From NCBI RefSeq assembly GCF_020622355.1, contig NZ_WHVL01000003.1, positions 310,001 to 374,000 of the forward strand: DNA of 64,000 bases, given 5' to 3'. Below, piece after piece: positions 32,669 through 47,316 of this stretch; positions within the stretch are counted from its first letter, which is position 1, and each line of letters begins with the position of its first letter. Source of the DNA: Vreelandella malpeensis (GTDB taxonomy: Bacteria > Pseudomonadota > Gammaproteobacteria > Pseudomonadales > Halomonadaceae). A program made the translations under genes and the position numbers. Under the pieces are notes generated by a model that worked only from the letters and a program-made list of their open reading frames with translations, had not been told where the DNA came from and searched no databases.

Positions 32669-33454
32669 TTACTGCTTCGACATCTCGTGAACCTTGTACA
32701 GCAGCTTTTCGGGAGCTTCGATGGACGGCACGTGCCCCACGTCGTTGAAGATCGTCAGCGGCGCACCGTCGAGCTCCTTGGCCAGCGCTGCAAGAGTGTC
32801 CGGCGGCGTGGCCAGATCGTCGCTACCGCCAAGCAGCTGAACCTTTACTCTCTTGCCGGAAAGCTTACCGGTGAAGGTAGCGCGGCCCAGCATCTCGCAG
32901 AGCTGAGCATAGGACTCATCGTCGCTGCGGCCCATCTGCACACACCAGCCCGCTTTAAGCCCGGGGCTCGCCTCGAGCGCTTTCGGCCCAAACCAGCGCG
33001 GCACGATCTCCCCGGCCATCGCCTCGAGTCCTTCGTCACGCACCCGCGCGGCACGGGTGTTCCAGAGATCGGGATTGCCGATGACCGCGCCGGTATTGGT
33101 CAGCGTGGCCGATAGTAGCCGGTCGCTGTGGGCTTCGATCAGCCGCTGCCCGATCACCCCGCCGATGGACGTACCCACGAAGTGAAAACGTGCGTCGCCA
33201 GCCTGAGCTATCAGCGCGAGCGCTTCGTCGGCGAGATCCGCCGGCGTGACGCGCTCACCGTTCACGCTTTCGCTTGCACCGTGGCCGGGCAGGTCCCAGG
33301 TCAGCACACGATAGCGCGGCAACAACGCCGGCAGCATGTCGTCCCAGACGGCCTGGCTCATGCCCAGCGGATGCGCCAGGACCACCAGCGGGTTGGTCTG
33401 GGCGCCGAGCAACCGGTAGGCGACGCTGCGGCCGTTGAACTCCAGATATGCCAT
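32669..33454 (-). CDS. pcaD: 3-oxoadipate enol-lactonase
   Basis: A 261-residue alpha/beta hydrolase that opens 3-oxoadipate enol-lactone to 3-oxoadipate. The nucleophile is S96 in FVGTSIGGV. The oxyanion-side motif is LAHPLGMS, and the acid and His are in LLGGSDDLATPP and FNDVGHVPSIEAP. It lies 10 bases downstream of pcaF and is the last gene of catI-catJ-pcaF-pcaD. PcaC is not fused to it, unlike some actinobacterial PcaL proteins. Confidence 0.92.
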   Translation of the reverse strand: MAYLEFNGRSVAYRLLGAQTNPLVVLAHPLGMSQAVWDDMLPALLPRYRVLTWDLPGHGASESVNGERVTPADLADEALALIAQAGDARFHFVGTSIGGVIGQRLIEAHSDRLLSATLTNTGAVIGNPDLWNTRAARVRDEGLEAMAGEIVPRWFGPKALEASPGLKAGWCVQMGRSDDESYAQLCEMLGRATFTGKLSGKRVKVQLLGGSDDLATPPDTLAALAKELDGAPLTIFNDVGHVPSIEAPEKLLYKVHEMSKQ

Positions 33455-33464
33455 GCAACCTCCC

Positions 33465-34667
<1,203 letters not shown>

Positions 34668-34677
34668 GGTGGACTCC

Positions 34678-35451
34678 TTACTGGCCGGCGTGGGCGCGAT
34701 CGGTGCGCGCTTTCAGCTCGCGCAGAATGGTCAGCTCGTTCTCGCCGGGCTCGGGCGTGATCTCCAGCTGCTCGGCGAAACGGATCTCCCAGCCGGTGGC
34801 CTCCTGCACCTGCTCGCGGGAAACACCCGGGTGCAGCGAGACGACGACCAGCTCCCTGGTCTCCGGGTCCGGCTTCATAACGCACAGGTCGGTAATCACC
34901 CGGGTCGGCCCCTTGCCGATGTTGGGCACGTTATCGCGGCCCTTGCCGTCCCGGCCAAAGCCGAGAGTGGTGACGAAGTCGACCTTCTCCACGAACGCAC
35001 GGCTGGAGTGCTTCAGGGTAATGAACACTTCGCCGGCGTTGGTGGCGATCTCGGGCGCCCCGCCGCCGCCGGGCAGGCGCACTTTTGGTGAGCGGTAGTC
35101 GCCGATCAGCGTGGTGTTGAGGTTGCAGTACTTGTCGATCTGAGCGGTGCCCAGAAAGCCGACATCGATCTTGCCGCCCTGCAGCCAGTAGCGAAACATC
35201 TCCGGCACCGCCACGGTGGTCAGCGCGGTTTCGGCAAGCTCCCCGTCGCCGATGGAAAGCGGCAGCACATTGGGCTTGGTCTGCAGCGTGCCGGACTCGT
35301 AGATCAGCACCACGTCCGGGGCGTAGGTCAGCCGCGCCAGGTTGGCGGCTTCCGAGGGCAAGCCGATGCCCACGAAGCAGGTCGAGCCGTTCTCCAGCGC
35401 CCGGGCGGCGGTGACGGTCATCATTTCGGAAGAGGTGTATTCGAGACTCAT
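34678..35451 (-). CDS. catJ: 3-oxoadipate CoA-transferase subunit B (CatJ type)
   Basis: A 257-residue beta subunit. With subunit A it moves CoA from succinyl-CoA to 3-oxoadipate. The likely catalytic Glu lies in VLIYESGTLQT. LPGGGGAPEIATNAGE and GFGRDGKGRDN resemble CatJ from Pseudomonas knackmussii rather than PcaJ. Its ATG shares one base with the catI stop (TGATG). Confidence 0.9.
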   Translation of the reverse strand: MSLEYTSSEMMTVTAARALENGSTCFVGIGLPSEAANLARLTYAPDVVLIYESGTLQTKPNVLPLSIGDGELAETALTTVAVPEMFRYWLQGGKIDVGFLGTAQIDKYCNLNTTLIGDYRSPKVRLPGGGGAPEIATNAGEVFITLKHSSRAFVEKVDFVTTLGFGRDGKGRDNVPNIGKGPTRVITDLCVMKPDPETRELVVVSLHPGVSREQVQEATGWEIRFAEQLEITPEPGENELTILRELKARTDRAHAGQ

Positions 35452-36269
35452 CAGGCGCTCTCCCCTGTTTGATGCACGTTGTTGTCAAGCCACTGGGTGA
35501 AGGTATCGCGATCGCGGGCGATGGCGTCCCACTCCTTGTAGAAACGGTTGCTGCGCCCGTAGTAGCCGTGGGTGTAGGACGGCAGCGCGCCTTTCTCGGC
35601 GACGGCGATGGCGCTGATCGCCCAGCCGGGAATCACGCAGGCATTGGGGTGGGTGTCCAGATCGTCGACAACCTCCTCGACCGTGACGATGCTGTGCCTG
35701 GCGGCCAATACGGCCTCTTTCTGTACGCCGACGATGCCTTCGACCAGCACGTTACCCTGGCGGTCTGCCCGCTGGGCGTGAATGATCGAGACGTCCGGAC
35801 GCACCGACGGCACCGCCGCCAGCCGCTCGCCGGTGAACGGGCACTCGATGAACTTGATCTGGTCGTTGACGCTGGGCAATTCGCTTCCCACGTAGCCGCG
35901 CAGCACCGCCAGCGGTAGGCCCGCCGCTCCCGCCTCGAACGCGCAGGCCATGGCGGCGTGGCTGTGCTCGAGAATCTCGACCTTGTGCGGCCAGCCCTTC
36001 TCGACGGCGTCGCGCAGGCGGTGAAGCGAGCCCACGCCCGGGTTGCCGCCCCAGGAAAAGATCACCTTTTTCGCGCAGCCGGCGCCGATCAACTGATCAT
36101 AGATGATGTCCGGCGTCATGCGGATCAGGGTGAGATCACGCTTTTGCTGACGAATCACTTCGTGGCCCGCCGCGAACGGGATGAGATGGGTAAAGCCTTC
36201 CATGGCCACGGTCGCGCCGTCTTCGACGAAACGGGCTACCGCGTCATGCAGGCTAAGGAACTCGGCCAT
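35451..36269 (-). CDS. catI: 3-oxoadipate CoA-transferase subunit A (CatI type)
   Basis: A 272-residue alpha subunit, beginning MAEFLSLHDAVARFVEDGAT. The segments EGFTHLIPFAAGHEVIRQ, FSWGGNPGVGSLHRLRDAV and PSVRPDVSIIHAQRADRQGN are characteristic of CatI; PcaI has a different N-terminus. It heads catI-catJ-pcaF-pcaD, and a perfect GTTCG-N5-CGAAC palindrome lies 34 bases upstream of its start codon, so regulation by the PcaR-type protein at 45998 is likely. Confidence 0.9.
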   Translation of the reverse strand: MAEFLSLHDAVARFVEDGATVAMEGFTHLIPFAAGHEVIRQQKRDLTLIRMTPDIIYDQLIGAGCAKKVIFSWGGNPGVGSLHRLRDAVEKGWPHKVEILEHSHAAMACAFEAGAAGLPLAVLRGYVGSELPSVNDQIKFIECPFTGERLAAVPSVRPDVSIIHAQRADRQGNVLVEGIVGVQKEAVLAARHSIVTVEEVVDDLDTHPNACVIPGWAISAIAVAEKGALPSYTHGYYGRSNRFYKEWDAIARDRDTFTQWLDNNVHQTGESA

Positions 36270-36300
36270 TTGATTGCCTCTTGACTGATCACCGACACTG

Positions 36301-36339
36301 TTGTTCGCAATACGAACACTGATTTGTTATACGAACAAA
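36301..36339. promoter_or_regulatory. PcaR-type operator(s) upstream of catI
   Basis: GTTCGCAATACGAAC (36303-36317) is a perfect 5-5-5 palindrome. Eight bases beyond, TTTGTT-ATACG-AACAAA (36323-36339) is a second palindrome with the same 5-base spacer. The 15-bp form agrees with the known PcaR site of Pseudomonas putida in length and left half. Both lie in the promoter region of catI. Confidence 0.75.
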
Positions 36340-36514
36340 ATAATGAGGTTAGTCGTTTGCGTCAAATGCCGGAGACGGTAGGGTGGACGTCACCCTAGAT
36401 TCGGCGTCTTTGTAAATAACTGACTTATCAACCTCATAGGTCGTAAAAAGGCATCGGGCAGAAACGCCAGGCGAGCAAAAATCACGACAAAAGTATGACG
36501 AGCGCTGCTAGCAG

Positions 36515-37555
36515 TTAGACCGTCGCGACCGGCGTAACGGGAGAGCCGATCGCGCCCGGCAGGCGCAAGGGAGGTGCCGTGAGCATGAAACGTGATCGTC
36601 CATGAGCGGCTAACCAGTTCGCCAGAGGTCCTAGATACCAAAGCTCGGCCAAGGGCAAACCAAGCTTGAAAAGGCAGTGATGGTGAAGCGGCAGCTTGCA
36701 GCACTCGGTCCCATCGAGTTCGTGATCGGCGTTCTCGACGGCGTAGTTGTCCGCGCACAGCGTTGCGATCTGGCTATCTCCGATCCACTCGAGCAGTGCA
36801 TCGTCCCGCCCGTCCAGGACTGCGCCGGTGCGCTTGAGAAGGGTCGTATCGGGCCGGCCTCCCATGCGCATCACCTCCTCGGCGAACCCGGTGCGCAGCA
36901 CCAGCATGTCGCCTGCCTCGACCGTGACGTCGAGCGTTTTCATGGCGTGCATCAGCTCTGCGTACCCGACGAGGGTTCGACCGGTCCCGAACACGCGCGC
37001 CAGGTCGACGAGGACGCCGCGCCCCTGCATGCCGTGTACGGCCATGTGCTCGATCCCGAGTCGACGTGCGCGAGAGGCGCTGGCTTCACCATCGACGGCG
37101 CTCAGGTGCTGAATATCCGCCTTGGCCCGATAGCCGTTGTAGTAACAACGCTCGGCATGCCCGTCGCCATCGGCGTCGAAGAGGGCACCGACATGGGCGA
37201 GCGAATCCCACTGGGACGAGTACTGAAGCGAGAGCACCACCTCATCGTCGCTGATGACATCGAGAAGCCCTTCATGCACCCTGGAAAGCGGAAAATTGAC
37301 ATAGTCGTTACCGTCCAGGCGCGTCGGCGAGAGGCGGGGCGGGAAGCGCCTTGGATTGAGCGCGTTGCCTCCAGGCAGATCCAGCGGTAGCGAAAGGCTG
37401 AACACGTTTCCGGTCAATACCTCCCGGGCTCCTTTGAGTACCTGTTCTGCCGTGAGCAGATTGACCCTGCCCAACTGATCGTCCGTTCCGAAATCACCCC
37501 AGTTGGCGCCCTCGGGCCGTTGTTGCCAACGCTTGTTGTCACTTTGATGCGTCAT
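36515..37555 (-). CDS. Cyclase-family metal-dependent hydrolase
   Basis: A 346-residue protein of the 'cyclase' (kynurenine-formamidase-like) family. The family histidine region reads SSQWDSLAHVGALF at about residue 110; a second conserved area is HGMQGRGVLVDLARVFG. Members hydrolyse formamides, lactones or similar bonds. It overlaps the upstream dehydrogenase gene by 17 bases, so the two form an operon. Its start at 37555 removes an unlikely N-terminal extension that would lie antiparallel to nothing but the dehydrogenase gene. Possible role: lactone opening. Substrate unknown. Confidence 0.82.
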   Translation of the reverse strand: MTHQSDNKRWQQRPEGANWGDFGTDDQLGRVNLLTAEQVLKGAREVLTGNVFSLSLPLDLPGGNALNPRRFPPRLSPTRLDGNDYVNFPLSRVHEGLLDVISDDEVVLSLQYSSQWDSLAHVGALFDADGDGHAERCYYNGYRAKADIQHLSAVDGEASASRARRLGIEHMAVHGMQGRGVLVDLARVFGTGRTLVGYAELMHAMKTLDVTVEAGDMLVLRTGFAEEVMRMGGRPDTTLLKRTGAVLDGRDDALLEWIGDSQIATLCADNYAVENADHELDGTECCKLPLHHHCLFKLGLPLAELWYLGPLANWLAAHGRSRFMLTAPPLRLPGAIGSPVTPVATV

Positions 37556-38492
37556 GATCGCTGCCCTTTTCCTCGTGGGTGTGCTGCATCGCCACGGCGA
37601 TGACGCGCTCCAGACCTTCTCGGGTGCGGCGTTGCCTGCCCTCGATACGCTGATCATCCCAGCGATAGAACCCTTGCCCTGACTTCGCCCCCAGCCAACC
37701 CTGGGCCACGCGTTCTTCGAGAAGCCGCGACGGTTCACGTGTACGCTCGAGATCCTCGTACAGGTAGCGAGCGATGTTGAGATGCGTATCGAGGCCATTG
37801 AGATCACGCTGCAGCAGCGGTCCACTCAAGGCCAGACGCACGCCGATGGAAAACTGAACGATATCGTCCAGAGCCTCGATATCGACGACGCCCTTCTCCA
37901 GCAGCGACAGACATTCGCGCATGATGGCGTGCTGTATACGGTTGGCGACGAAACCGGGTACCGCCTGCTTCAATACTGCCGGGCGCTTGCCGAGGCGTTC
38001 GAGAAAGGTGCAGGTCCGATGAAGGGCGGCCTTCGTCGTGACCGCGCCCGGGATGACTTCCACGGCCGGGATGAGATCCGCCGGGTTGAAGAAATGCGCT
38101 CCCGCAAGACGTTCGGGATGGCGCATATCCCGGCCGATGGCATCGATCGAGAGTCCGGACGTATTGGTGACGATTAGAGTGGCCGGATCACAATACGCCT
38201 CGGCTCGGGACATCACGGCACGCTTGATCTCCAGATTCTCCGGCACGCTCTCGATGACGATGCTGCTCTCGTCTTCCCGGGACCAGTGCGTTTGCAGGGC
38301 GAGCCGCGTCGTATCGACATCCGTGCCGGCAAACGCCTGATCCATCTTCTGTCGGCAGGTTTCCAGAGCCGCTGCACGGCTATCGATGACGCATACCGAC
38401 AGGCGATTGGCCAGCATCAGCTTGGCGAGGGTGGTGCCCATGGTGCCTGCACCGATGACCACGGCGCGCTCGATAGGGGGTGTCATTTCCAT
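37539..38492 (-). CDS. 3-hydroxyacyl-CoA dehydrogenase family protein
   Basis: A 317-residue NAD-dependent dehydrogenase. The N-terminal Rossmann motif is AVVIGAGTMGTTLAKLML (about residues 10-27). Catalytic-region segments are SIVIESVPENLEIKRAV, TNTSGLSIDAIG, AGAHFFNPADLIPAVEVI and VPGFVANRIQHAIMRE; the His of HFFNP is the usual catalytic base. It lacks a fused crotonase. It starts 150 bases from the divergent atoE gene. Likely oxidises a 3-hydroxyacyl-CoA; a free 3-hydroxy acid cannot be excluded. Confidence 0.88.
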   Translation of the reverse strand: MEMTPPIERAVVIGAGTMGTTLAKLMLANRLSVCVIDSRAAALETCRQKMDQAFAGTDVDTTRLALQTHWSREDESSIVIESVPENLEIKRAVMSRAEAYCDPATLIVTNTSGLSIDAIGRDMRHPERLAGAHFFNPADLIPAVEVIPGAVTTKAALHRTCTFLERLGKRPAVLKQAVPGFVANRIQHAIMRECLSLLEKGVVDIEALDDIVQFSIGVRLALSGPLLQRDLNGLDTHLNIARYLYEDLERTREPSRLLEERVAQGWLGAKSGQGFYRWDDQRIEGRQRRTREGLERVIAVAMQHTHEEKGSDHDASK

Positions 38493-38642
38493 ACCCGCTT
38501 TCCTCGTTGCTTTTGAACTTTCAATATCGCTGCGACCAACGTCGCATTGTTAGCCAGCTCAATACGCTCAATCATTGACCATATAGCGAACATTAGTGCG
38601 CCATGCGTACGAACAAAGTATCTCAACTTCTGGAGAATCGCC
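38493..38642. promoter_or_regulatory. Divergent promoter region with two operator half-sites
   Basis: This 150-bp AT-richer gap separates the dehydrogenase-cyclase pair (-) from the atoE operon (+). It contains GCGAACATTAG (38586-38596) and ACGAACAAAG (38610-38619), each matching one half of the GTTCG-N5-CGAAC palindrome. No full palindrome is present. Confidence 0.45.
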
Positions 38643-39977
38643 ATGCAGGCTATGGCCAATTTCTTTACCCGGCTGGTCAATCGTTACATGCCGGACCCAC
38701 TGGTCATCGCGATCCTCCTGACCGCCTTGACGATTCTGCTCGCCATGCTGGTCGAGGGCACGTCGCCGCTGGCGGCCACGCGCTTCTGGGGAGACGGCTT
38801 CTGGGGACTACTGGCGTTCAGCATGCAGATGACCGTCATCTTGCTGGCCGGCTACATCCTGGCAAAGACGCCGTTGGTCGACCGCCTTCTCGACCGAATC
38901 GCCAGCCGCGTCAAGACACCGTTCATGGCCATCGTGGTCGCCACGCTGGTCGGCGGCATCGGCAGCTGGCTCAACTGGGGTTTTGGTCTCGTGATCGGCG
39001 GCATCGTTGCCCAGAAGCTGGCGCTCAACGTGCGGGGTCTGCACTATCCTCTGGTCATCGCGGCCGCCTACTCGGGCTTTGCACTCTACGGGATCGGGCT
39101 TTCTGGAAGCGTGCCGCTGTTGATCGCGACACCAGGCCACTTTCTCGAGCAGACGATGGGCCTGGTTCCGCTGTCCGAAACGATCTTTTCCCCCATCATG
39201 CTGGCGACCAGCCTCTTCATCATCGTGACACTGCCGCTGTTCAATGCGTGGCTGCATCCCAGGCGCTCCGAGGACATCATCGAGCTCGATCCCGCCACCG
39301 TGGTCAAGCCCGTTGCGCCGCCGCTGGTCGATGCCAGAAACGCCACCCTGGCCGAACGACTTAACCATAGCCGTATCATCGGTATCGGCATCGGGTTGCT
39401 GGGCATGCTGTACGTCGCCCTCTACAGCCTCGATGGCGGGTCGCTGAACCTCAACACGGTCAACTTTACCTTCGTGTTCCTCGGCATACTGCTGTTCGCC
39501 TCTCCTGCTCAGTACCTCGCCGCGCTGAACGATGGCGTACGCATCGTTTCCGGCATCATCATCCAGTACCCCTTCTATGCCGGCATTATGGGCATACTCG
39601 TCGGATCGGGGCTGATGGTGAGCTTTGCCGGGCTGTTCGTGGATATCTCGAGCGCCAGTACGCTGCCTATCTGGTCGTTCATCAGTGGCGGTGTGATCAA
39701 CATTCTCGCGCCTTCCGGCGGCGGGCAATGGGCGGTACAGGGCCCGGTGATGATCGAAGCGGCCAATGCCCTCGGGGCTTCCCATGCCGCTACCGCCCTG
39801 GCGGTTCAGATCGGCGATCAGTGGACCAACATGGTCCAGCCCTTCTGGATTCTACCCGTGCTCGCCATCTCGGGGCTGAAGCTGCGCGATGTGATGGGCT
39901 ACATGGTGCTGATCTTGATGTATCTCGGGCTTGTCTTCGGTGCCGCTGTCTGGCTCTGGGGTTACCTGGCCGTCTGA
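38643..39977 (+). CDS. AtoE-family short-chain fatty acid transporter
   Basis: A 444-residue membrane protein with about ten to twelve helices, similar in length and pattern to E. coli AtoE (FTRLVNRYMPDPLVIAILLT at the N-terminus; PSGGGQWAVQGPVMIEAA and GDQWTNMVQPFW near the C-terminus). The start is the ATG with GGAG 7 bases upstream; an in-frame extension to 38547 covers the promoter. It heads an operon with the YciI-like, isomerase-like and SDR genes. It may import a short organic acid. Confidence 0.88.
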   Translation: MQAMANFFTRLVNRYMPDPLVIAILLTALTILLAMLVEGTSPLAATRFWGDGFWGLLAFSMQMTVILLAGYILAKTPLVDRLLDRIASRVKTPFMAIVVATLVGGIGSWLNWGFGLVIGGIVAQKLALNVRGLHYPLVIAAAYSGFALYGIGLSGSVPLLIATPGHFLEQTMGLVPLSETIFSPIMLATSLFIIVTLPLFNAWLHPRRSEDIIELDPATVVKPVAPPLVDARNATLAERLNHSRIIGIGIGLLGMLYVALYSLDGGSLNLNTVNFTFVFLGILLFASPAQYLAALNDGVRIVSGIIIQYPFYAGIMGILVGSGLMVSFAGLFVDISSASTLPIWSFISGGVINILAPSGGGQWAVQGPVMIEAANALGASHAATALAVQIGDQWTNMVQPFWILPVLAISGLKLRDVMGYMVLILMYLGLVFGAAVWLWGYLAV

Positions 39978-40016
39978 TGCCTGTTTCTTTTCATGTCACC
40001 CATTCTGGAGAGTACG

Positions 40017-40313
40017 ATGCCTTACATGATCGAGACCTTCGACAAGCCCGGTGAGCACGACCTGCGCCTTGCAACGCGCGACGAGCATCTGGCTTATCTG
40101 GAGGCCCACAAGAAGCGACTGCTGGCCTGTGGTGCCAAGCTGTCGGAAGACGGCCAACGCGCGTCCGGCGGGGTCTATCTGGTCGACTACGAGACGCGCG
40201 AAGAAGCCCAGGCATTCATCGATGGTGACCCCTTCAGCCGGGTCGCGCTGTTCGAGCGCGTCGTGATCTGTCGCTGGCGCAAGGCGTACCTGGACGGCGC
40301 CTGCCATCTGTAA
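40017..40313 (+). CDS. YciI-like protein
   Basis: A 98-residue single-domain protein of the YciI family (dimeric ferredoxin-like barrel). KRLLACGAKLSEDG and GGVYLVDYETREEAQAFIDG, followed by DPF, match the family. GGAG lies 6 bases before the ATG. YciI relatives include dehalogenating muconolactone-isomerase-like enzymes, so a role beside the next gene in lactone chemistry is possible (inference). Confidence 0.85.
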   Translation: MPYMIETFDKPGEHDLRLATRDEHLAYLEAHKKRLLACGAKLSEDGQRASGGVYLVDYETREEAQAFIDGDPFSRVALFERVVICRWRKAYLDGACHL

Positions 40314-40348
40314 CGTCCTCCGACCCTTTTCAACGCTGGAGATACGAG

Positions 40349-40639
40349 ATGCTTTTTCATGTGAAAATGGTCGTCAATCTGCCCCAGGATATGCCTAGCG
40401 AGGTTGCCGACGACATCAAGACACGCGAGCGCGAGTACGCCCAGGCGCTGCAACAACGGGGCACGTGGCGCCACTTGTGGCGTATTGCCGGCAGCTACGC
40501 CAATGTCAGCATCTTCGATGTCGAAGACAATGCCGAGCTGCACGAAATTCTCTCCGGGCTCCCCCTGTTTCCCTACATGGCGATCTCGGTGACACCCCTT
40601 TGTCGCCACCCCTCCTCCATCCGAGACGACGACCGCTGA
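40349..40639 (+). CDS. catC: Muconolactone delta-isomerase-like protein
   Basis: A 96-residue protein with strong CatC resemblance: MLFHVKMVVNLPQDMP at the start, TWRHLWRIAGSYANVSIFDV in the centre and LPLFPYMAISVTPLCRHPSS near the end. CatC converts muconolactone to 3-oxoadipate enol-lactone, the PcaD substrate. No catA or catB is present here, so its natural substrate may be a related lactone. It lies 35 bases after the YciI-like gene. Confidence 0.85.
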   Translation: MLFHVKMVVNLPQDMPSEVADDIKTREREYAQALQQRGTWRHLWRIAGSYANVSIFDVEDNAELHEILSGLPLFPYMAISVTPLCRHPSSIRDDDR

Positions 40640-40677
40640 GTCGCCCGCTCGGCGACCCCTCTTTTCAGGAGCGCTTC

Positions 40678-41391
40678 ATGACCACTTCCTATGCCGTCGT
40701 GACCGGCGGTGCCCGCAACATCGGCCAGGCCATCGCCTTGCGTCTACAGCAAGACGGTTACCGTGTCATCGTTCTCGACATCGTCGAACCGGAAGCCGAA
40801 TCGCTCAAGGGCCACGCCTACCGGGTGGATCTCTCGGACGTGGAGGCCACGCGGCAACGACTCGAGGAAATCACCCGCGATCTTGACGTCAGCTGTCTGG
40901 TCAATAACGTCGGTATCGTCGCCCCCGCACTGCTCGACGACACCGATATCGCTGACTTCGATACCCTGATGCATCTTAACGTGCGCGCGGCGCTGGTCTG
41001 CACTCAGGCCTTGCTGCCCAAGCTGCGTGAAAGCAAGCACGGGCGCATCGTTTTCAACGCCAGTCGCGTGGTGCTGGGCAAGGAGGCAAGGACGCTTTAC
41101 AGCGCCACCAAGGGCGCGGTGCAGGCCATGTCGCGTACCTGGGCGCTGGAGCTTGCCAAGGACGGCATTACCGTCAACTGCGTTGCGCCGGGTCCTATCG
41201 CCACGACGGCCTTCTGGGAAAACAATCCGCCGGACTCCGAGCGGGCGCGGCGCATCATCGACAACATCCCGGTACAGCGCATGGGCCAGCCGGACGAAGT
41301 GGCCCATGCGGTCAGTTTTTTCTGTGATCGACGCAGCGGCTTCGTGACCGGCCAGACCCTGTTCGTATGTGGTGGCGTCACCGTCGGATGA
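40678..41391 (+). CDS. Short-chain dehydrogenase/reductase
   Basis: A 237-residue classical SDR. It has TGGARNIGQAIA at about residues 9-20 for nucleotide binding, NNVG, and the catalytic Ser and Tyr-x3-Lys in NASR and YSATKGAVQAM. The aspartate at the end of beta-2 (VIVLDIV) favours NAD(H). CAGGAG lies 8 bases before the ATG. It is the last gene of the atoE operon and ends 4 bases before the convergent CoA-transferase gene. Confidence 0.9.
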   Translation: MTTSYAVVTGGARNIGQAIALRLQQDGYRVIVLDIVEPEAESLKGHAYRVDLSDVEATRQRLEEITRDLDVSCLVNNVGIVAPALLDDTDIADFDTLMHLNVRAALVCTQALLPKLRESKHGRIVFNASRVVLGKEARTLYSATKGAVQAMSRTWALELAKDGITVNCVAPGPIATTAFWENNPPDSERARRIIDNIPVQRMGQPDEVAHAVSFFCDRRSGFVTGQTLFVCGGVTVG

Positions 41392-41395
41392 GCCC

Positions 41396-42616
41396 TTAGA
41401 CGACGCCCGCCGCCTGCAGGCGGGCAATCTCCTCTTCGTCCTTGCCCAGCAGCCGTGCAAGCACGTCCTGAGTATCCTCTCCCAGCACCGGTGGCGCCTT
41501 GGCATACTCGATCGCGGTCCTGGAATACTTGATGGGATTGGCCACCCCAGGCACCCTGCCCGACGCTCCCGGCATCTCGATCTTCATGCCGCGCGCCTTG
41601 ACCTGTTCGTCCTCGAAGACCTGAGCGATGTTCTGAATCGGGCCACACGGCACGCCGATCGATTGCAACAGCGCCATCAGGGCGCCGCTTTCATAACCGC
41701 GTGTCACATCGTTGATCAGCGCCACCAGCGCGACCCGGTGCTTGACGCGTTGCGGGTTGGTGACAAAGCGCGCGTCACTCGCCACGTTCTCCATGCCGAC
41801 GGCGCTGCAGAAACGACGAAACTGACCATCGTTGCCGATGGCAATGATCACCTTCTCGCCGCTGGCCGTCACGAAAGGCTGGTAAGGCACCAGATTGGGA
41901 TGATACTCACCGGTACGCGTCGGCGCCGTGCCGCTGCAGAAGTAATTGAGCGCCTGGTTGGCAAGCCAGCTTACCTGAACATCGAGCAGTGCCATGTCGA
42001 TATGCTGACCTTCGCCTGTCCGGTGTCGGTGGTGCAAGGCGCCGAGAATGGCCACGACCGCATTCATCCCCGTGGTCAGATCGGCCACGGCCATGCCGAC
42101 GCGCTGAGGCCCTTCACCGGGCAAGCCGTCGGGTACACCGGTGATGCTCATGAGCCCGGCCTGGGCCTGGACGAGATAGTCGTACCCCGCCATCGCCGCC
42201 ATGGGCCCGGTTTGACCAAATCCGGTGATCGAGCAATAGATGAGGGCGGGGTTGATCGTAGACAGAGTGGCATAGTCCAGGCGCTTCTCGGCCAGACCGC
42301 CGGTCTTGAAATTCTCGACCACGATATCGCTTTGGGCAGCCAGCTCATGGATCAACGCCTGCCCATCGGGATGGGCGATATCGACGGTGACCGAGTGCTT
42401 GCCGCGATTCGCCGATAGGAAATACGCCGACTGTGGCACCTGGGAGCTCTCTCCCTGCCACCAGGGTGGCCCCCAATGACGCGTGTCGTCACCCAGGCCC
42501 GGCCGCTCTATCTTGATCACCTCCGCCCCCATGTCCGCCAGCATCTGGGTGCACCACGGGCCTGCCATTACCCTGCTCAAGTCAAGTACACGCAATCCTT
42601 GCAAGGGTCCCGGCAT
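41396..42616 (-). CDS. CaiB/BaiF-type (class III) CoA-transferase
   Basis: A 406-residue protein: LRVLDLSRVMAGPWCTQMLADMGAEVIKIE at the N-terminus is diagnostic (split here as LRVLDLSRVMAGP and GAEVIKIERP). The catalytic Asp is in VADLTTGMNAV. GGAG lies 7 bases before the ATG at 42616; a GTG six bases further up is less well placed. It probably activates the acid imported by the Tct or AtoE carrier. It is the last gene of tctC-tctB-tctA-caiB-like. Confidence 0.9.
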   Translation of the reverse strand: MPGPLQGLRVLDLSRVMAGPWCTQMLADMGAEVIKIERPGLGDDTRHWGPPWWQGESSQVPQSAYFLSANRGKHSVTVDIAHPDGQALIHELAAQSDIVVENFKTGGLAEKRLDYATLSTINPALIYCSITGFGQTGPMAAMAGYDYLVQAQAGLMSITGVPDGLPGEGPQRVGMAVADLTTGMNAVVAILGALHHRHRTGEGQHIDMALLDVQVSWLANQALNYFCSGTAPTRTGEYHPNLVPYQPFVTASGEKVIIAIGNDGQFRRFCSAVGMENVASDARFVTNPQRVKHRVALVALINDVTRGYESGALMALLQSIGVPCGPIQNIAQVFEDEQVKARGMKIEMPGASGRVPGVANPIKYSRTAIEYAKAPPVLGEDTQDVLARLLGKDEEEIARLQAAGVV

Positions 42617-42673
42617 GGTCACTCTCCTTTATTCGTCATCAACGATGGTTGTCGTATCAAGGTCCCTCGGCGA

Positions 42674-44179
42674 TCAAGCACTCTGATTATCGGGGCTGGA
42701 CCCGGTCTTCTCCTTGCGGGACTGGAAGAACCGATACAGCGCGAGCGCAATGGAGCCAAAGGTAATGACGATGAAGAACCACGTAATCGGACCCCGCACG
42801 AAGATCGAGAGATCGCCATTGCCGATCAGCAAGGAGCGCCTCAGATTGTCCTCGAACATCGGCCCCAGAATGAAACCAATGAGAAACGGGGCTGCCGGAA
42901 TGCCGGTGCGATTGAACACGTAGCCCACCACGCCGAAAGCGAGCATCACCCAGATATCGAAGGTCGTGTTGTTGACGGCGTAGGCGCCGTAGACGCAGAA
43001 CATCAAGACGATGGGAAACAGAATGGACTTGGGAATGTCCGCAATCAGCGAGAAATACTTGATGGCGGCATTGCCGACCACCAGCAGGATGACCGAGCTG
43101 AGCATGATACCCAGGAAAAGCGCATAGATGAGCGATAGATTTTCCTGGAACATGATGGGGCCCGGGGTTAGGCCATGAACCATGAAGGCCCCCAGAATGA
43201 TGGCCGTGATGACATCGCCGGGAATCCCCAGGGATAGAAGCGGGATCAAGGTTGCACCGGCCACCCCGTTGTTACCGGCCTCCGCCGCAGCGACCCCCTC
43301 GACCTCACCCTTGCCGAAATTCTCCTTGTTGGGCGAACGCCGACGCGCCTCGCTGTATGAAATGAAGGCGGCAGCCGTGGCGCCGGTGCCGGGAATGGCG
43401 CCGATGATGACGCCGATCAGGCTTCCGCGCACGATACTCTTCATGCAGCGTTTCAACTCGACGAGGGTCATGCCGACACCGCTGGCCTTTGCCTTCAGGT
43501 GGGGCATGGCTTTCTTGCGATAGAACTCCATGATTTCCGGTATGGCGAACAGCCCGATCAGCAACGGAATGAAGGAAATCGAGTCCATCAGGTTGTAGTT
43601 GCCGAAGGTGAAGCGCTGGGAGCCGAAAACCGAGTCCAGCCCCACCAGCGATAGCATGATGCCCATGAAGGCGGCCAGCAGCCCTTTCACCATCGAACCA
43701 CTGGAAAGGGAAATGATGATGGTCAGTGAAAAGCAGATCAGCCAGAAGAACTCCGGCGCCCCGAAATTCAGCGCGATCTTGGCCAGGTAGGCGGCGAAGA
43801 AGATCAGCGCGATGTTCGAGATGAAGTCCGCGATGACCGAGGAGAACAGGGCAGTCTTGAGCGCCTTCTTGGCATGTCCTTGCTGCGCCATCGGATAGCC
43901 GTCGAGCAAGGTACAGGCAGAGGCAGGCGATCCGGGAGTGCGGATCAGAATGGCGGTTATCGAGCCACCGTACATGCCCCCTTTGTAGATACCGACCAGC
44001 AGCAGAATGGCCGCGACGGGCTGCATGGAAAAGGTGAAGGGAAGGGCCAGAGCAACCGCCATGGTCGCGGTCAAGCCGGGAATGGAGCCGACGGTGACGC
44101 CGATGACCACTCCCAGAGCGATCGCGATGAAATTGTCGATGCTCAAGAACAGCTGGAGCACTTCTGCAAGATTATCCAT
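42674..44179 (-). CDS. tctA: Tripartite tricarboxylate transporter, large permease TctA
   Basis: A 501-residue membrane protein with about twelve helices. Family segments are GVTVGSIPGLTATMAVALAL, IYKGGMYGGSITAILIRTPG, AEAGNNGVAGATLIPLLSLG and IPGTGATAAAFI. It is the main translocation subunit of the TTT system, which takes up carboxylates with sodium or protons. It follows tctB by 26 bases. Confidence 0.95.
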   Translation of the reverse strand: MDNLAEVLQLFLSIDNFIAIALGVVIGVTVGSIPGLTATMAVALALPFTFSMQPVAAILLLVGIYKGGMYGGSITAILIRTPGSPASACTLLDGYPMAQQGHAKKALKTALFSSVIADFISNIALIFFAAYLAKIALNFGAPEFFWLICFSLTIIISLSSGSMVKGLLAAFMGIMLSLVGLDSVFGSQRFTFGNYNLMDSISFIPLLIGLFAIPEIMEFYRKKAMPHLKAKASGVGMTLVELKRCMKSIVRGSLIGVIIGAIPGTGATAAAFISYSEARRRSPNKENFGKGEVEGVAAAEAGNNGVAGATLIPLLSLGIPGDVITAIILGAFMVHGLTPGPIMFQENLSLIYALFLGIMLSSVILLVVGNAAIKYFSLIADIPKSILFPIVLMFCVYGAYAVNNTTFDIWVMLAFGVVGYVFNRTGIPAAPFLIGFILGPMFEDNLRRSLLIGNGDLSIFVRGPITWFFIVITFGSIALALYRFFQSRKEKTGSSPDNQSA

Positions 44180-44205
44180 ATATCACCTTATCAAGAGGAT
44201 AATGT

Positions 44206-44706
44206 TTAAAACGGCATCAACGGCAGAGGGACGTTCATGACATTGACGAACAATAAGGTGACCCCGACAGGGAGAGCGATTGCGAACCCGTAGGCCCACC
44301 AGGTCCTGACGGGATGAGCCAAAAAGAGCAGCACCGTTGCCAAGACGCCAGACAGGATGGCCCCCAGCATCTCGAAGAAGAAAACGTAGACCAGGATGCC
44401 CGCGATCATGACGAGAAAGCGCCGGACAGGGCCCTTTACCAGTTTTCGTTCATCGCCTTCCTTAGCGGTTTTAGTGAGTACTCCTTGCGCCACGAGCAGC
44501 AGTGCAAACGCCAGCATCAACCAGCTGACGATGTTGGGCAGCCACCGAGGGGACATCATCGGGTTCTGAAGTATCGGTGGTTCGCCGATATAGTTGGGTA
44601 TCAAATAGAACGCGAGCACTAACGACAGGACCAATAGCACGAGGCCGGTCACGATATCGATCGTGTCTTTGGCGCTGTTCGCTGCGCTGGATCTTGAAAG
44701 GGACAT
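44206..44706 (-). CDS. tctB: Tripartite tricarboxylate transporter, small permease TctB
   Basis: A 166-residue membrane protein with four predicted helices (TGLVLLVLSLVLAFYLIP, LPNIVSWLMLAFALLLVAQG, FLVMIAGILVYVFFFEMLGA and YGFAIALPVGVTLLFVNVMN). The start at 44706 follows GAGAGG closely; a longer in-frame extension to 44844 runs through the tctC-tctB hairpin and is rejected. Confidence 0.9.
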   Translation of the reverse strand: MSLSRSSAANSAKDTIDIVTGLVLLVLSLVLAFYLIPNYIGEPPILQNPMMSPRWLPNIVSWLMLAFALLLVAQGVLTKTAKEGDERKLVKGPVRRFLVMIAGILVYVFFFEMLGAILSGVLATVLLFLAHPVRTWWAYGFAIALPVGVTLLFVNVMNVPLPLMPF

Positions 44707-44745
44707 AGGTGCCTCTCCGCGAGGACTCGCTCTTAAAATCGTGAA

Positions 44746-44775
44746 AAGACGAAGGTTGTCTCCAACCTTCGTCTT
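44746..44775 (-). terminator. Attenuating hairpin between tctC and tctB
   Basis: A perfect 13-bp stem (AAGACGAAGGTTG / CAACCTTCGTCTT) with a 4-base loop begins 17 bases after the tctC stop, followed on the minus strand by TTCACGATTTT. It could partly end transcription after tctC or protect its mRNA, raising binding protein over permease. Confidence 0.75.
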
Positions 44776-44791
44776 CATCGTTATTCGTCGT

Positions 44792-45775
44792 TTACTGACG
44801 AATACCCGCCTGCTCGGCCACTTCCTGCCAGCGAGCGAGATCATCGATCACGAACTGCTTGAAGGCTTCCCCCTCCACCTGGCCTGGCTCCGCACCGAGC
44901 TGTTCGGCAAAATCCAGGAACTCCTCGCGCTCCATCACTTCATCCAGCGCAGCTTGCATGGCGTCATACCCTTCTTCGGGGAAAGAGTTATGAGCGATGA
45001 GACCGAACCAGGCGGTCGTCACGAACTGATCGAGATTGTCGACGCCGATTTCGGAGAGCGTGGGTACGTCGGGCAGGTACGGCGAGCGTTCCTGAGAGGT
45101 CACCGCCAGAGCGCGCAAGTCACCCGACTGAATATGCGAATACACCGTCGGCATGTTTTCAAACGAGACGTCGACATCGCCTCCAAGCAGCGCCGGCAAG
45201 GCCGCACCGCTACCCGCGAAAGGCACCGCCGTCATGTTCGATCCGGTCAGCGTCTTGAACAGTTCGCCCGACATGTGAATGGAGCTGCCGACACCGCTAT
45301 GACTGAACGCCATGTTTTCTTCTCGAGCGGCTTCGATGAACTCCTCGACGGACTGATAGGGGCTACTGGTAGGTACCACCATGACGTTGGGGATATCGAT
45401 GACGTTCTGAATGAAGACGAAGTCTTCGACCGGATCGTAAGGCAGGTCTGGATAGATCGCCGCACCGATGGTATGTCCCGGAGATGCCATCAGCAGCGTA
45501 TGGTCGGCATCGCGACCACCCCGAGCCAGACGACCGGTACCTACCGTCGACCCGGCGCCAGGGCGGTTCTCGACGATCACGTTGGCGCCCAAGGCGTCTT
45601 GCAGCAGATCGGCAACGCGTCGAGACAGGACATCGGTCGTGCCACCGGGTGCGTAGGGAACGACCAGATGGACGTCCTTGGTTGGCCAGTCGGCAGAAGC
45701 CGTGGTAACGCCGACAGAGAGAAACACAGCGGTGCCACCCAAGGCTAGACAGGCAGTGCTTAAAAGCTTGTTCAT
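44792..45775 (-). CDS. tctC: Tripartite tricarboxylate transporter binding protein TctC
   Basis: A 327-residue exported binding protein. The Sec signal peptide is about residues 1-28 (ends TTASA/DWP). VPYAPGGTTDVLSRRVADLL and VIVENRPGAGSTVGT are hallmark segments. The aspartate-rich ligand loop (DLPYDPVEDFV) is present. The start follows AAGGA by 9 bases; the upstream in-frame codons lie in the operator region. It heads the tct operon. Confidence 0.93.
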   Translation of the reverse strand: MNKLLSTACLALGGTAVFLSVGVTTASADWPTKDVHLVVPYAPGGTTDVLSRRVADLLQDALGANVIVENRPGAGSTVGTGRLARGGRDADHTLLMASPGHTIGAAIYPDLPYDPVEDFVFIQNVIDIPNVMVVPTSSPYQSVEEFIEAAREENMAFSHSGVGSSIHMSGELFKTLTGSNMTAVPFAGSGAALPALLGGDVDVSFENMPTVYSHIQSGDLRALAVTSQERSPYLPDVPTLSEIGVDNLDQFVTTAWFGLIAHNSFPEEGYDAMQAALDEVMEREEFLDFAEQLGAEPGQVEGEAFKQFVIDDLARWQEVAEQAGIRQ

Positions 45776-45804
45776 TTTATTTTTCCTTATATATGTCGTA
45801 TTTT

Positions 45805-45823
45805 TTGTTCGCCTTACGAACAA
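45805..45823. promoter_or_regulatory. PcaR-type operator upstream of tctC
   Basis: GTTCGCCTTACGAAC (45807-45821) is a perfect 5-5-5 palindrome flanked by TT/AA, 30 bases before the tctC start. It has the same half-sites as those upstream of catI and the regulator gene. Confidence 0.75.
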
Positions 45824-45926
45824 TTATTCGCGATACATACATAAAGATTACTGTTCTCTTGAATCATTCCCAACACAACTTTAGTCTGATAGAAGAAAGG
45901 TAGGCGATTACACTTATCAAAAACAA

Positions 45927-45953
45927 ATATTAGTTCGCATAACGAACTAATAT
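45927..45953. promoter_or_regulatory. PcaR-type operator upstream of the regulator gene
   Basis: GTTCGCATAACGAAC (45933-45947) is extended to 11-bp perfect arms (ATATTAGTTCG / CGAACTAATAT). It lies 45 bases before the regulator start and is the likely autoregulatory site. Confidence 0.78.
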
Positions 45954-45997
45954 GCATTAAATTCGAGTGCACATTGAAATTCGAATCAGGAGTGGCA

Positions 45998-46783
45998 ATG
46001 CTCGAGGAAGAAACCCTTAGCCCGGATAGCCGCGATTTCGTGACTGCTCTGGCCAGTGGATTGGAAGTCATCCGGGCATTCGATCAAGAACATCCGCGCA
46101 TGACGTTGAGCGAGGTCGCTCAACGCACCGGCATGAACCGCGCCAAGGCAAGGCGCTTTCTATTGACGCTGCACGCGCTGGGCTACATTCGTAAACAGCA
46201 GCGCTATTTCGAGCTTGCTCCGCCGGTGCTCAATCTCGGTTACGCCTTTCTATCCGCCAACAACTACCGAGGTGTCATACAGCAATGCCTCGAGGCCATC
46301 ACGGCACAGACCGGCGAATCATCGTCGCTTGGCTTGCTCGAAGGGAACGACGTCATCTACGTTGCCCGTTCGGCGGCACGCCACCGACTCATGGCCATTA
46401 CTCTTTCGGTGGGCACGCGCCTGCCTGCGGCCTACACCTCCATGGGCCGCATCCTGCTTGCTCAGAAGACCGTGAGCGATCTTGATGCCTATCTCGATCA
46501 GGTCGACTTGCACCGCCATACGGACAAGACGATCGTCACGGTCAGCAGACTCAAGGACGAGATCATACAAGCGCGCCAGCAGGGTTATGCCATCGTGGAT
46601 CAAGAGCTCGACCCAGGACTTCGTTCACTGGCAGTCCCCGCCTTCGATGCACAGGGCAAGCTCTTGGGCGCCATCAACATCAGTACCAACGTGGCACGCG
46701 TCGATCTCGATACGCTCCTGAAAGAGCACTTACCGCTTCTGCAGGAAATGGCACGCTTGATCAGAACGACGGTCAGCGGCTAA
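45998..46783 (+). CDS. pcaR: IclR-family regulator of PcaR/PcaU/PobR type
   Basis: A 261-residue regulator. The N-terminal winged helix-turn-helix (about 15-75) contains [20 protein letters not shown] and [23 protein letters not shown], the pattern of beta-ketoadipate pathway regulators. The C-terminal effector domain (about 90-255) contains [19 protein letters not shown] and [25 protein letters not shown] precedes the ATG at 45998. PcaR proteins usually respond to 3-oxoadipate. Its stop overlaps the convergent aroQ stop by 3-4 bases. The exact effector here is unknown. Confidence 0.87.
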
Positions 46784-47226
46784 GCCGCAAACCGGGCGAT
46801 CACCGCATCCAGCGCTGCGATATACCCCTGGCTGCCCAACCCGGCAATAATGCCATCAGCGCGCTGCGATACGTAGGAGTGGTGGCGAAACGCTTCTCGC
46901 TTGTGAATATTGGAAAGATGAACTTCTATCACCATGCCCTCGTAGGCATTGAGGGCATCGAGCAGTGCAACCGAGGTATGCGAATAGGCGGCAGGATTGA
47001 CAATGATCGCCCGCGTTCCATCCAATCTTGCGGCTTGCACTGCGTCGATGAGATCGCCTTCGTGGTTGCTTTGAAAATCCTTGAGCTCCCACTGCGCTTT
47101 TACTGCCTGGGTACGTAGTCGGCTCACGATGTCGTCGAGCGTTTCCTTGCCGTAGATATCCGGTTGCCGCCCCCCCAGCAGATTGAGATTCGGGCCGTTG
47201 AGAAGCAGTACGCGGGAAATGGTCAT
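46780..47226 (-). CDS. aroQ: 3-dehydroquinate dehydratase, type II
   Basis: A 148-residue enzyme that interconverts 3-dehydroquinate and 3-dehydroshikimate. The active site is visible: [12 protein letters not shown]25 in YGKETL, N77 and H83 in NPAAYSHTS, and [14 protein letters not shown] with H103. The type II enzyme serves either aromatic biosynthesis or quinate breakdown; its contact with the PcaR-type regulator gene favours the latter, but this is an inference. Confidence 0.95.
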
Positions 47227-47316
47227 GATTGAGCGCCTTGGTTCGCCAGGAGTTGTCGACACCTCGAAAGAGGTGATGCTACCTTATTACGCCTTTCGAA
47301 CCCATCAAGTGCCCTC

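Follow-up and report, generated by a model that had tools for sequence, protein, structure and literature searches.

A PcaR-associated gene set of Vreelandella malpeensis as a new variant of the β-ketoadipate pathway, possibly fed by a preformed lactone or hydroxy acid

The genes catC, pcaD, pcaF, and catIJ are commonly taken as signs of aromatic degradation, and all of them occur in the catechol branch of the β-ketoadipate pathway (catBCA, pcaD, catIJ, pcaF). A stretch of 64,000 nucleotides from Vreelandella malpeensis (assembly GCF_020622355.1, contig NZ_WHVL01000003.1, positions 310,001 to 374,000 of the forward strand; hereafter the window) contains a locus that has CatC, PcaD, a CoA-transferase, PcaF, and a PcaR-type regulator in common with this branch. 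However, no intradiol dioxygenase and no CatB above cut-off is found in this genome, and the locus adds a PF04199 hydrolase (herein CYC), a YciI-like protein (YciI), a dehydrogenase of the 3HCDH family (HCDH), an SDR oxidoreductase, and the permease AtoE. The mml methylmuconolactone cluster combines two small isomerase-type proteins, a hydrolase, a CoA-transferase, a thiolase, and a transporter for preformed lactones. The same gene types are present in our gene set—referred to as the module—but CYC, HCDH, and SDR are extra here, and YciI matches PF03795 as its sole family in a Pfam scan; the methylisomerase MmlI has a Pfam family of its own. The cca cluster (ccaBARCD) of Pseudomonas reinekei MT1 shares with the module a PF04199 lactone hydrolase with a modified metal motif, as described in PMC5341072, and an IclR-type regulator, according to the review PMC3975901. 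Unlike the module, it encodes a catechol dioxygenase, a cycloisomerase, and a maleylacetate reductase. The phloroglucinol cluster of Clostridium scatologenes, as described in PMC10470551, likewise combines an SDR, a PF04199-type cyclase, and a CoA-free dehydrogenase of the 3HCDH family. The module differs from it by its metal motif (Q-Q-D-H, not the isatin-hydrolase type), by the presence of CatC and PcaD, and in one instance by a cleavage enzyme of the 3-oxoadipate type. An ordinary catRBCA cluster is reported for Halomonas organivorans in PMC3112211. An earlier note on this DNA, made from the sequence alone, had named no described pathway with this set, and none was found in the literature searched, whose coverage excludes most subscription papers. 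The locus is a new variant of the β-ketoadipate pathway.

Our reading, to which we give an even chance, is that the PcaR-controlled module turns an imported, preformed C6 γ-lactone or β-hydroxy acid of the muconolactone type into 3-oxoadipate without aromatic ring opening. The entry compound is probably such a preformed lactone or β-hydroxy acid; acid import and lactone chemistry, which the earlier note had proposed, remain the likeliest interpretation. We suggest more cautiously, at somewhat less than even confidence, that this is an undescribed and patchily spread pathway by which bacteria consume a natural C6 lactone or hydroxy-diacid of non-aromatic nature via the lower β-ketoadipate pathway. 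In the present genome and some others, the lower pathway may serve no other route. If true, this would be a second, non-aromatic door into the β-ketoadipate pathway, and with the lower pathway possibly kept for this purpose only, the presence of catC, pcaDF, and catIJ would be no evidence of aromatic degradation. It would also provide a working context for three families that are poorly understood (YciI, PF04199 hydrolases of the Q-Q-D-H type, and CoA-free 3HCDH enzymes), with substrates that are directly testable.

The gene set is not a chance neighborhood. A search with CYC gave related places, of which the best 80 of 309 were used along with plasmid and genome loci. In this collection, 58 loci from gamma-, beta-, and alphaproteobacteria, the window among them, have both CYC and YciI. 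CatC is present in 58 of these, AtoE in 56, SDR and a PcaD-type protein in 53 each, and HCDH in 50; L065 and L043 are short or ended by contig ends, and the counts include an SDR match of 32% identity (L043) and an HCDH match of 28% identity (L092). The recurrence that the earlier note had left to a genome-neighborhood search is hence seen for CYC, YciI, and CatC in 58/58 loci. In halomonads, HCDH–CYC is divergent from AtoE–YciI–CatC–SDR; in Bordetella and Achromobacter, the order is HCDH–AtoE–SDR, IclR, CoA-transferase, CatC–YciI–PcaD–CYC; and Rhodobacterales differ from both. A near-complete stretch in L108 and L109 has PcaR divergent from CoA-transferase–PcaF–PcaD–CYC–YciI–SDR–AtoE–CatC–TctC, without HCDH; herein the A subunit of the transferase is a 28% match to CatI, and the B subunit is deduced from its open reading frame (ORF). 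The minimal set AtoE–YciI–CYC–CatC–PcaD is found in L107 and in Cupriavidus metallidurans (L091), in the latter between unrelated flanking genes on both sides.

Seven further loci are not part of the 58 (L156, L157, L158, and L169 to L172). Five of them carry the module (L156, L157, L169, L170, L172), L170 without HCDH within its 14.5 kb. A search with YciI matched 13 of 398 Pseudomonadota genomes: in five (the present genome G000, G386, G255, G225, G389) the match lies within the module, in G356 it is 58% identical and lies outside, and in the remaining seven it is 35 to 42% identical. Among 399 Burkholderiales and 390 Rhodobacterales genomes, 23 and 5 were matched; 17 new contexts were inspected (13/23 and 4/5), and four others were already among the loci analyzed. 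The module was seen in two of the 13 Burkholderiales contexts and in reduced form in a third (L158), with ten lacking it, and in all four Rhodobacterales contexts, one of which (L171) lacks CatC and PcaD. No further upstream enzyme that would name the substrate was noticed in the part of these neighborhoods that the annotation covered.

The product of the module is very probably 3-oxoadipate, because of the module PcaD, the alternative endings, the retention of CatI in congeners without an intradiol dioxygenase, and the CatB scores below cut-off. In the genome-wide profile search of the present genome (100% complete), PF00775, the intradiol dioxygenase family, has no match, and the best CatB score is 119.9 bits against a cut-off of 334.95. 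The claim that ring-cleavage dioxygenase, catB, pcaB, and pcaC are missing therefore stands for the intradiol type and CatB; pcaB, pcaC, and extradiol enzymes lay outside the genome-wide search. Of 82 genomes of the genus, 30 are without PF00775. CYC occurs in 18 of the 82, with CatC within 4 kb in 16; in the two exceptions (G442, G480) CYC is only 56% identical, and in G443, one of the 16, CYC appears as two separate matches (C1:4848942-4849960) close to a CatC match. Among the 30 intradiol-negative congeners, CatI is found in 6/6 with the module and in 3/24 without it (Fisher p 1.4e-4; 6/6 against 1/17 and p 6.9e-5 in genomes at least 90% complete), and CatC in 6/6 and 0/24, respectively. 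CatB exceeds its cut-off in none of these six (best 223.3 bits, G475) but does so with 499 bits in the two genomes that served as controls and carry a cat operon (nine genomes searched).

The PcaD-type 3-oxoadipate enol-lactonase of the window (32669..33454, minus strand) scores 186.4 bits with TIGR02427, below the cut-off of 255.85, and follows pcaF directly; it likewise adjoins pcaF/catIJ in halomonad relatives (e.g., L002, L004–L008, L018). The PcaD of L108 is above the family cut-off (287.8 bits), and annotators use this name in L085–L087. The endings vary from CatIJ with PcaF in the window, through another CoA-transferase with PcaF in L108/L109, to a single cleavage enzyme in L087. The latter is above the cut-off for 3-oxoadipate:acetyl-CoA acetyltransferase (468.4 against 350 bits) and reaches 165 bits for the 3,5-dioxohexanoate type, whose cut-off is 430. 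Entry at 3-oxoadipate, as proposed in the earlier note, is thus supported by L108 PcaD, the L087 enzyme, and CatI retention.

In the window the lower pathway continues with the 3-oxoadipyl-CoA thiolase PcaF (33465..34667; TIGR02430, 676.1 bits, cut-off 597) and the CoA-transferase subunits B (34678..35451; PF01144, 152.2 bits) and A (35451..36269; PF01144), all on the minus strand. The closest solved relative of subunit A is glutaconate CoA-transferase (1poi, 3.3e-30). We take these subunits to be CatJ and CatI; for CatJ no family model gives the name. The earlier bounds (36515..46783) should be widened to 32669-46783 since pcaD–pcaF–catJ–catI (32669-36269) carries the same type of operator and belongs to the gene set. 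All genes named earlier were found at their positions by family profile scores; it is the left limit that was set too narrowly.

The gene set is apparently regulated jointly via predicted PcaR-type operators. The regulator is an IclR protein of the PcaR/PcaU/PobR type (45974..46783, plus strand; ATG 45998 possible) that scores barely above its cut-off (TIGR02431, 286.7 against 284.75 bits). For PcaR, PcaU, PobR, and their kin, PMC8222616 gives the operator consensus GTNCG-N5-6-CGNAC, which in some cases is joined by a direct half-site farther out. Three matches to the exact form GTTCG-N5-CGAAC occur in the window (0.08 expected), and these are its only places in the 3.6-Mb genome, in which the reversed control pattern has eight. 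One putative operator, GTTCGCAATACGAAC (36303..36317), lies upstream of catI, and two found by pattern search, GTTCGCCTTACGAAC (45807..45821) and GTTCGCATAACGAAC (45933..45947), lie between tctC and pcaR. The consensus, searched with N5 rather than N6 spacing, has four matches in the window, all inside three promoter gaps of the locus totaling 608 bases, which agrees with the PcaR-type control claimed earlier. The fourth is the putative operator variant GTGCGCCATGCGTAC (38596..38610) with an outer CGAAC half-site in the divergent HCDH/AtoE promoter. It has two mismatches to the exact form; when this stretch of the window is shuffled, 193 of 2000 versions match as well. Form and position of the site agree between the window and 10/10 halomonad loci, and it is absent from both alphaproteobacterial loci tested (L086, L106). 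The exact operator is present in the pcaR/tctC gap of 7/7 halomonad loci showing this gap and before catI in 9/9 with catI in view; it is absent from L001, where no pcaR is visible next to tctC.

CYC (36515..37555, minus strand) matches PF04199 with 29.8 bits (cut-off 23.1); its probable start, chosen from the reading frame, is ATG 37555, which falls within the last bases of the HCDH gene. The closest PDB relative is 5ibz (5.6e-42), which from its sequence motif is taken to be the esterase MGS0169 of PMC5341072. In that paper, the variant metal motif Q-x3-Q-x-D-x3-H is reported for MGS0169 and for the trans-dienelactone hydrolase of P. reinekei. The motif is present in 93/93 CYC homologs, including the window and 35 outside the module, so that CYC would be of the trans-dienelactone-hydrolase type within PF04199. 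That it hydrolyzes a lactone is reasonably likely. In a tree of CYC with 72 of the 93 rows, from which most Achromobacter module rows were excluded, the label "module" needs four changes, at least three of them forced by well-supported branches; recruitment on several occasions or the loss of partner genes would each fit this. A Caballeronia locus (L089, 8127-12291) has a 57% identical CYC after an intradiol dioxygenase that scores below the equivalog cut-offs; the gene of this CYC shares bases with that of a cycloisomerase (332.6 against 334.95 bits) and is followed by one with the annotation maleylacetate reductase. The operon is chlorocatechol-like, with the CYC homolog in the slot of the dienelactone hydrolase. 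CYC also occurs without YciI and CatC in L045, L063, L075, and L078 (Achromobacter, Pollutimonas, Cupriavidus; about 8 to 17 kb), near solute-binding proteins; at some of these loci, an SDR, an AMP-dependent ligase, or a succinyl-CoA-ligase-like protein is also encoded nearby. These are probably other pathways employing the same hydrolase.

HCDH (37539..38492, minus strand) is a dehydrogenase of the 3HCDH family that is probably CoA-free. The catalytic Ser, His, Glu, and Asn are conserved in 49/49 aligned homologs, two rows of 28% identity (L068, L092) having been dropped. In the same 49, the CoA-contact lysines are absent, with the lysine stretch aligning with gaps, and Asn221 is replaced by Arg. 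Lys50 and Lys54 of the clostridial enzyme are presumably CoA-contact residues. Lys56 and Asn221 are given as such in PMC10470551, where the hydroxy acid dehydrogenase encoded in the phloroglucinol cluster is reported to show a comparable loss. The best PDB match is 4om8, 5-formyl-3-hydroxy-2-methylpyridine 4-carboxylate 5-dehydrogenase, whose substrate is CoA-free judging by the enzyme name. The label "hydroxyacyl-CoA dehydrogenase" is doubtful because the CoA-contact residues are missing, and a literal 3-hydroxyacyl-CoA dehydrogenase, with the acyl-CoA role assumed in the earlier note, was rejected on the loss of these positions in 49/49 homologs. If CYC starts at ATG 37555, its gene shares 17 nt with that of HCDH; an overlap of 1 to 17 nt is possible in the window, 10 halomonads, and L086 (a few starts being uncertain) and is absent in L088 and L106.

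The divergent genes encode AtoE, a short-chain acid permease (38643..39977; PF02667, 437.8 bits; TIGR00366), YciI (40017..40313; NF009503, 155.9 against 145 bits), CatC (40349..40639; TIGR03221, 156.3 against 130.6 bits), and SDR (40678..41391; a family match with its start chosen from the reading frame), all on the plus strand. CatC looks like an ordinary muconolactone δ-isomerase by score, with this as its predicted activity: its closest solved relative is 1mli (1.6e-35, 124 bits), and dehalogenases reach 98 bits or less. YciI has the dehydrochlorinase TftG as its best solved relative (2.7e-10), and its His24 and Asp71 are near-invariant. The two successive lactone steps once suggested for the neighboring YciI and CatC are not demonstrated by these relationships. 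For SDR, the search for solved or known relatives gave no telling relative.

These features can be arranged in a two-arm scheme, which we offer as a tentative one, rated a little short of even. The acid would be imported by AtoE and, in halomonads, perhaps also by TctABC. In the first arm, CatC would convert muconolactone to the enol-lactone and PcaD would convert the latter to 3-oxoadipate. In the second arm, CYC would act as a metal-dependent lactone hydrolase that opens a carboxymethyl-butan(en)olide to a β-hydroxy acid, which HCDH would oxidize to the β-oxo acid; consecutive steps fit the overlap of the two genes. An opened lactone of the muconolactone skeleton yields a 3-hydroxy diacid, which is the substrate type expected for a CoA-free β-hydroxy acid dehydrogenase; for the unsaturated lactone, CatC and PcaD are the known alternative. 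The two arms would both arrive at the level of 3-oxoadipate. Starting from muconolactone itself, the second arm would give an unsaturated 3-oxo acid, and therefore a reduction, perhaps by SDR, would be needed. YciI would probably perform an elimination or isomerization and SDR a hydroxyl/keto step, bringing the true substrate to these lactones. CatIJ and PcaF would then carry out the final steps, for which one relative would use the 3-oxoadipate-cleaving enzyme instead.

Several observations weigh against the proposed lactone route. Many of the 58 loci are closely related (Achromobacter, Bordetella). HCDH is missing from 8/58 and SDR from 5/58, and therefore neither seems essential; L171 (SDR–YciI–AtoE–HCDH–CYC) has no CatC or PcaD within its 19 kb, and the reduced module of L158 (5018-9581) comprises HCDH, SDR, PcaR, YciI, and CoA-transferase-sized ORFs without CYC, CatC, or AtoE. 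The Fisher test for the association of CatI with the module takes no account of kinship, and CatI also occurs in the module-negative, intradiol-negative G435 (80% complete), G463 (66% complete), and G481 (a partial match). PF00775 is present in 14 of 21 chosen module-bearing genomes and in 10/16 module-bearing congeners, six of which have a second CatC beside the intradiol gene. As many module-bearing genomes thus have PF00775, the module is seen as an additional entry that is the sole one found in some genomes, including the present one. The number of consensus operators alone is not unusual (4 against 2.31 expected; 24/100 shuffles reach 4), and outside halomonads the exact operator is found in only 3/47 module loci (L016, L019, L109). 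The Q-Q-D-H motif is common to 35 CYCs outside the module and to an esterase and hence marks a subfamily, not a substrate.

An unlikely but still sizable alternative is that the cell takes up cis,cis-muconate or muconolactone lost from other microbes and that YciI or CYC replaces the missing muconate cycloisomerase. The genome has CatC, PcaD, CatIJ, and PcaF yet neither a CatA-type dioxygenase nor a CatB over cut-off, and YciI and CatC are small proteins of adjacent genes. However, SDR and HCDH would be left unused, six congeners have the module alongside a second CatC copy that belongs to a cat operon, and we know of no precedent for a YciI or PF04199 cycloisomerase. Less probable again is a triad of SDR, the cyclase, and the CoA-free hydroxy acid dehydrogenase whose target would be a cyclic 1,3-diketone, opened through retro-Claisen C–C hydrolysis as by PGR–DPGC–TfD. 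The same three families are clustered in the characterized C. scatologenes set, where the dehydrogenase also lacks CoA-contact residues, but DPGC reportedly retains the metal site of isatin hydrolase (both according to PMC10470551), whereas CYC has the Q-Q-D-H variant. Moreover, the cleavage enzyme associated with one module is of the 3-oxoadipate type and not of the 3,5-dioxohexanoate type, and CatC and PcaD would be without a role. That YciI, CatC, and CYC each act on a halogenated compound in the degradation of halogenated lactones is improbable: kin of all three (TftG, chloromuconolactone dehalogenase, trans-dienelactone hydrolase) do act in chloroaromatic pathways, but CatC is nearer to the ordinary isomerase than to the dehalogenases, and the genome has no chlorocatechol dioxygenase. 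A remnant of an ordinary catechol pathway beside unrelated neighbors is very improbable, since the same set with common operator-like sites and alternative endings occurs in three proteobacterial classes and both CatC copies persist in six congeners, although the module CatC is 68 to 75% identical to the CatC of 30 cat-type loci and a short CatC tree (59 rows of 97 loci, few columns) does not cleanly separate the two kinds.

Next to the module stands an accessory segment on the minus strand, made up of a class III CoA-transferase of the succinate-glutarate type (41396..42622; NF052585, 486.3 bits, below the equivalog cut-off of 750), TctA (42674..44179; PF01970), TctB (44206..44844; PF07331; start uncertain, with an ORF overlapping tctC), and the solute-binding protein TctC (44792..45775; PF03401; ATG 45775). 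These genes adjoin the module in halomonads and few others (a TctC in L108/L109), and since they are rarely beside it outside halomonads, they look like an add-on. AroQ (46780-47262) adjoins PcaR in the window and in several halomonads, and a Haematobacter locus (L085) has AroQ (10871-11311), a shikimate dehydrogenase, and a QuiC-like gene beside the module. Quinate or shikimate degradation was rejected: AroQ is single-copy in this genome and in 10 other congeners searched, and the QuiC-like protein scores 617 against 1200. As the sole copy of the genome, AroQ is read as a housekeeping gene, and its neighborhood is probably a coincidence. Farther to the left, the window encodes a flavin oxidoreductase, a DUF3483/4Fe-4S protein, a BCCT transporter, a Rieske oxygenase, a sarcosine oxidase gamma subunit, and a serine dehydratase (8643-31701), which together look like a catabolic region for glycine betaine and sarcosine.

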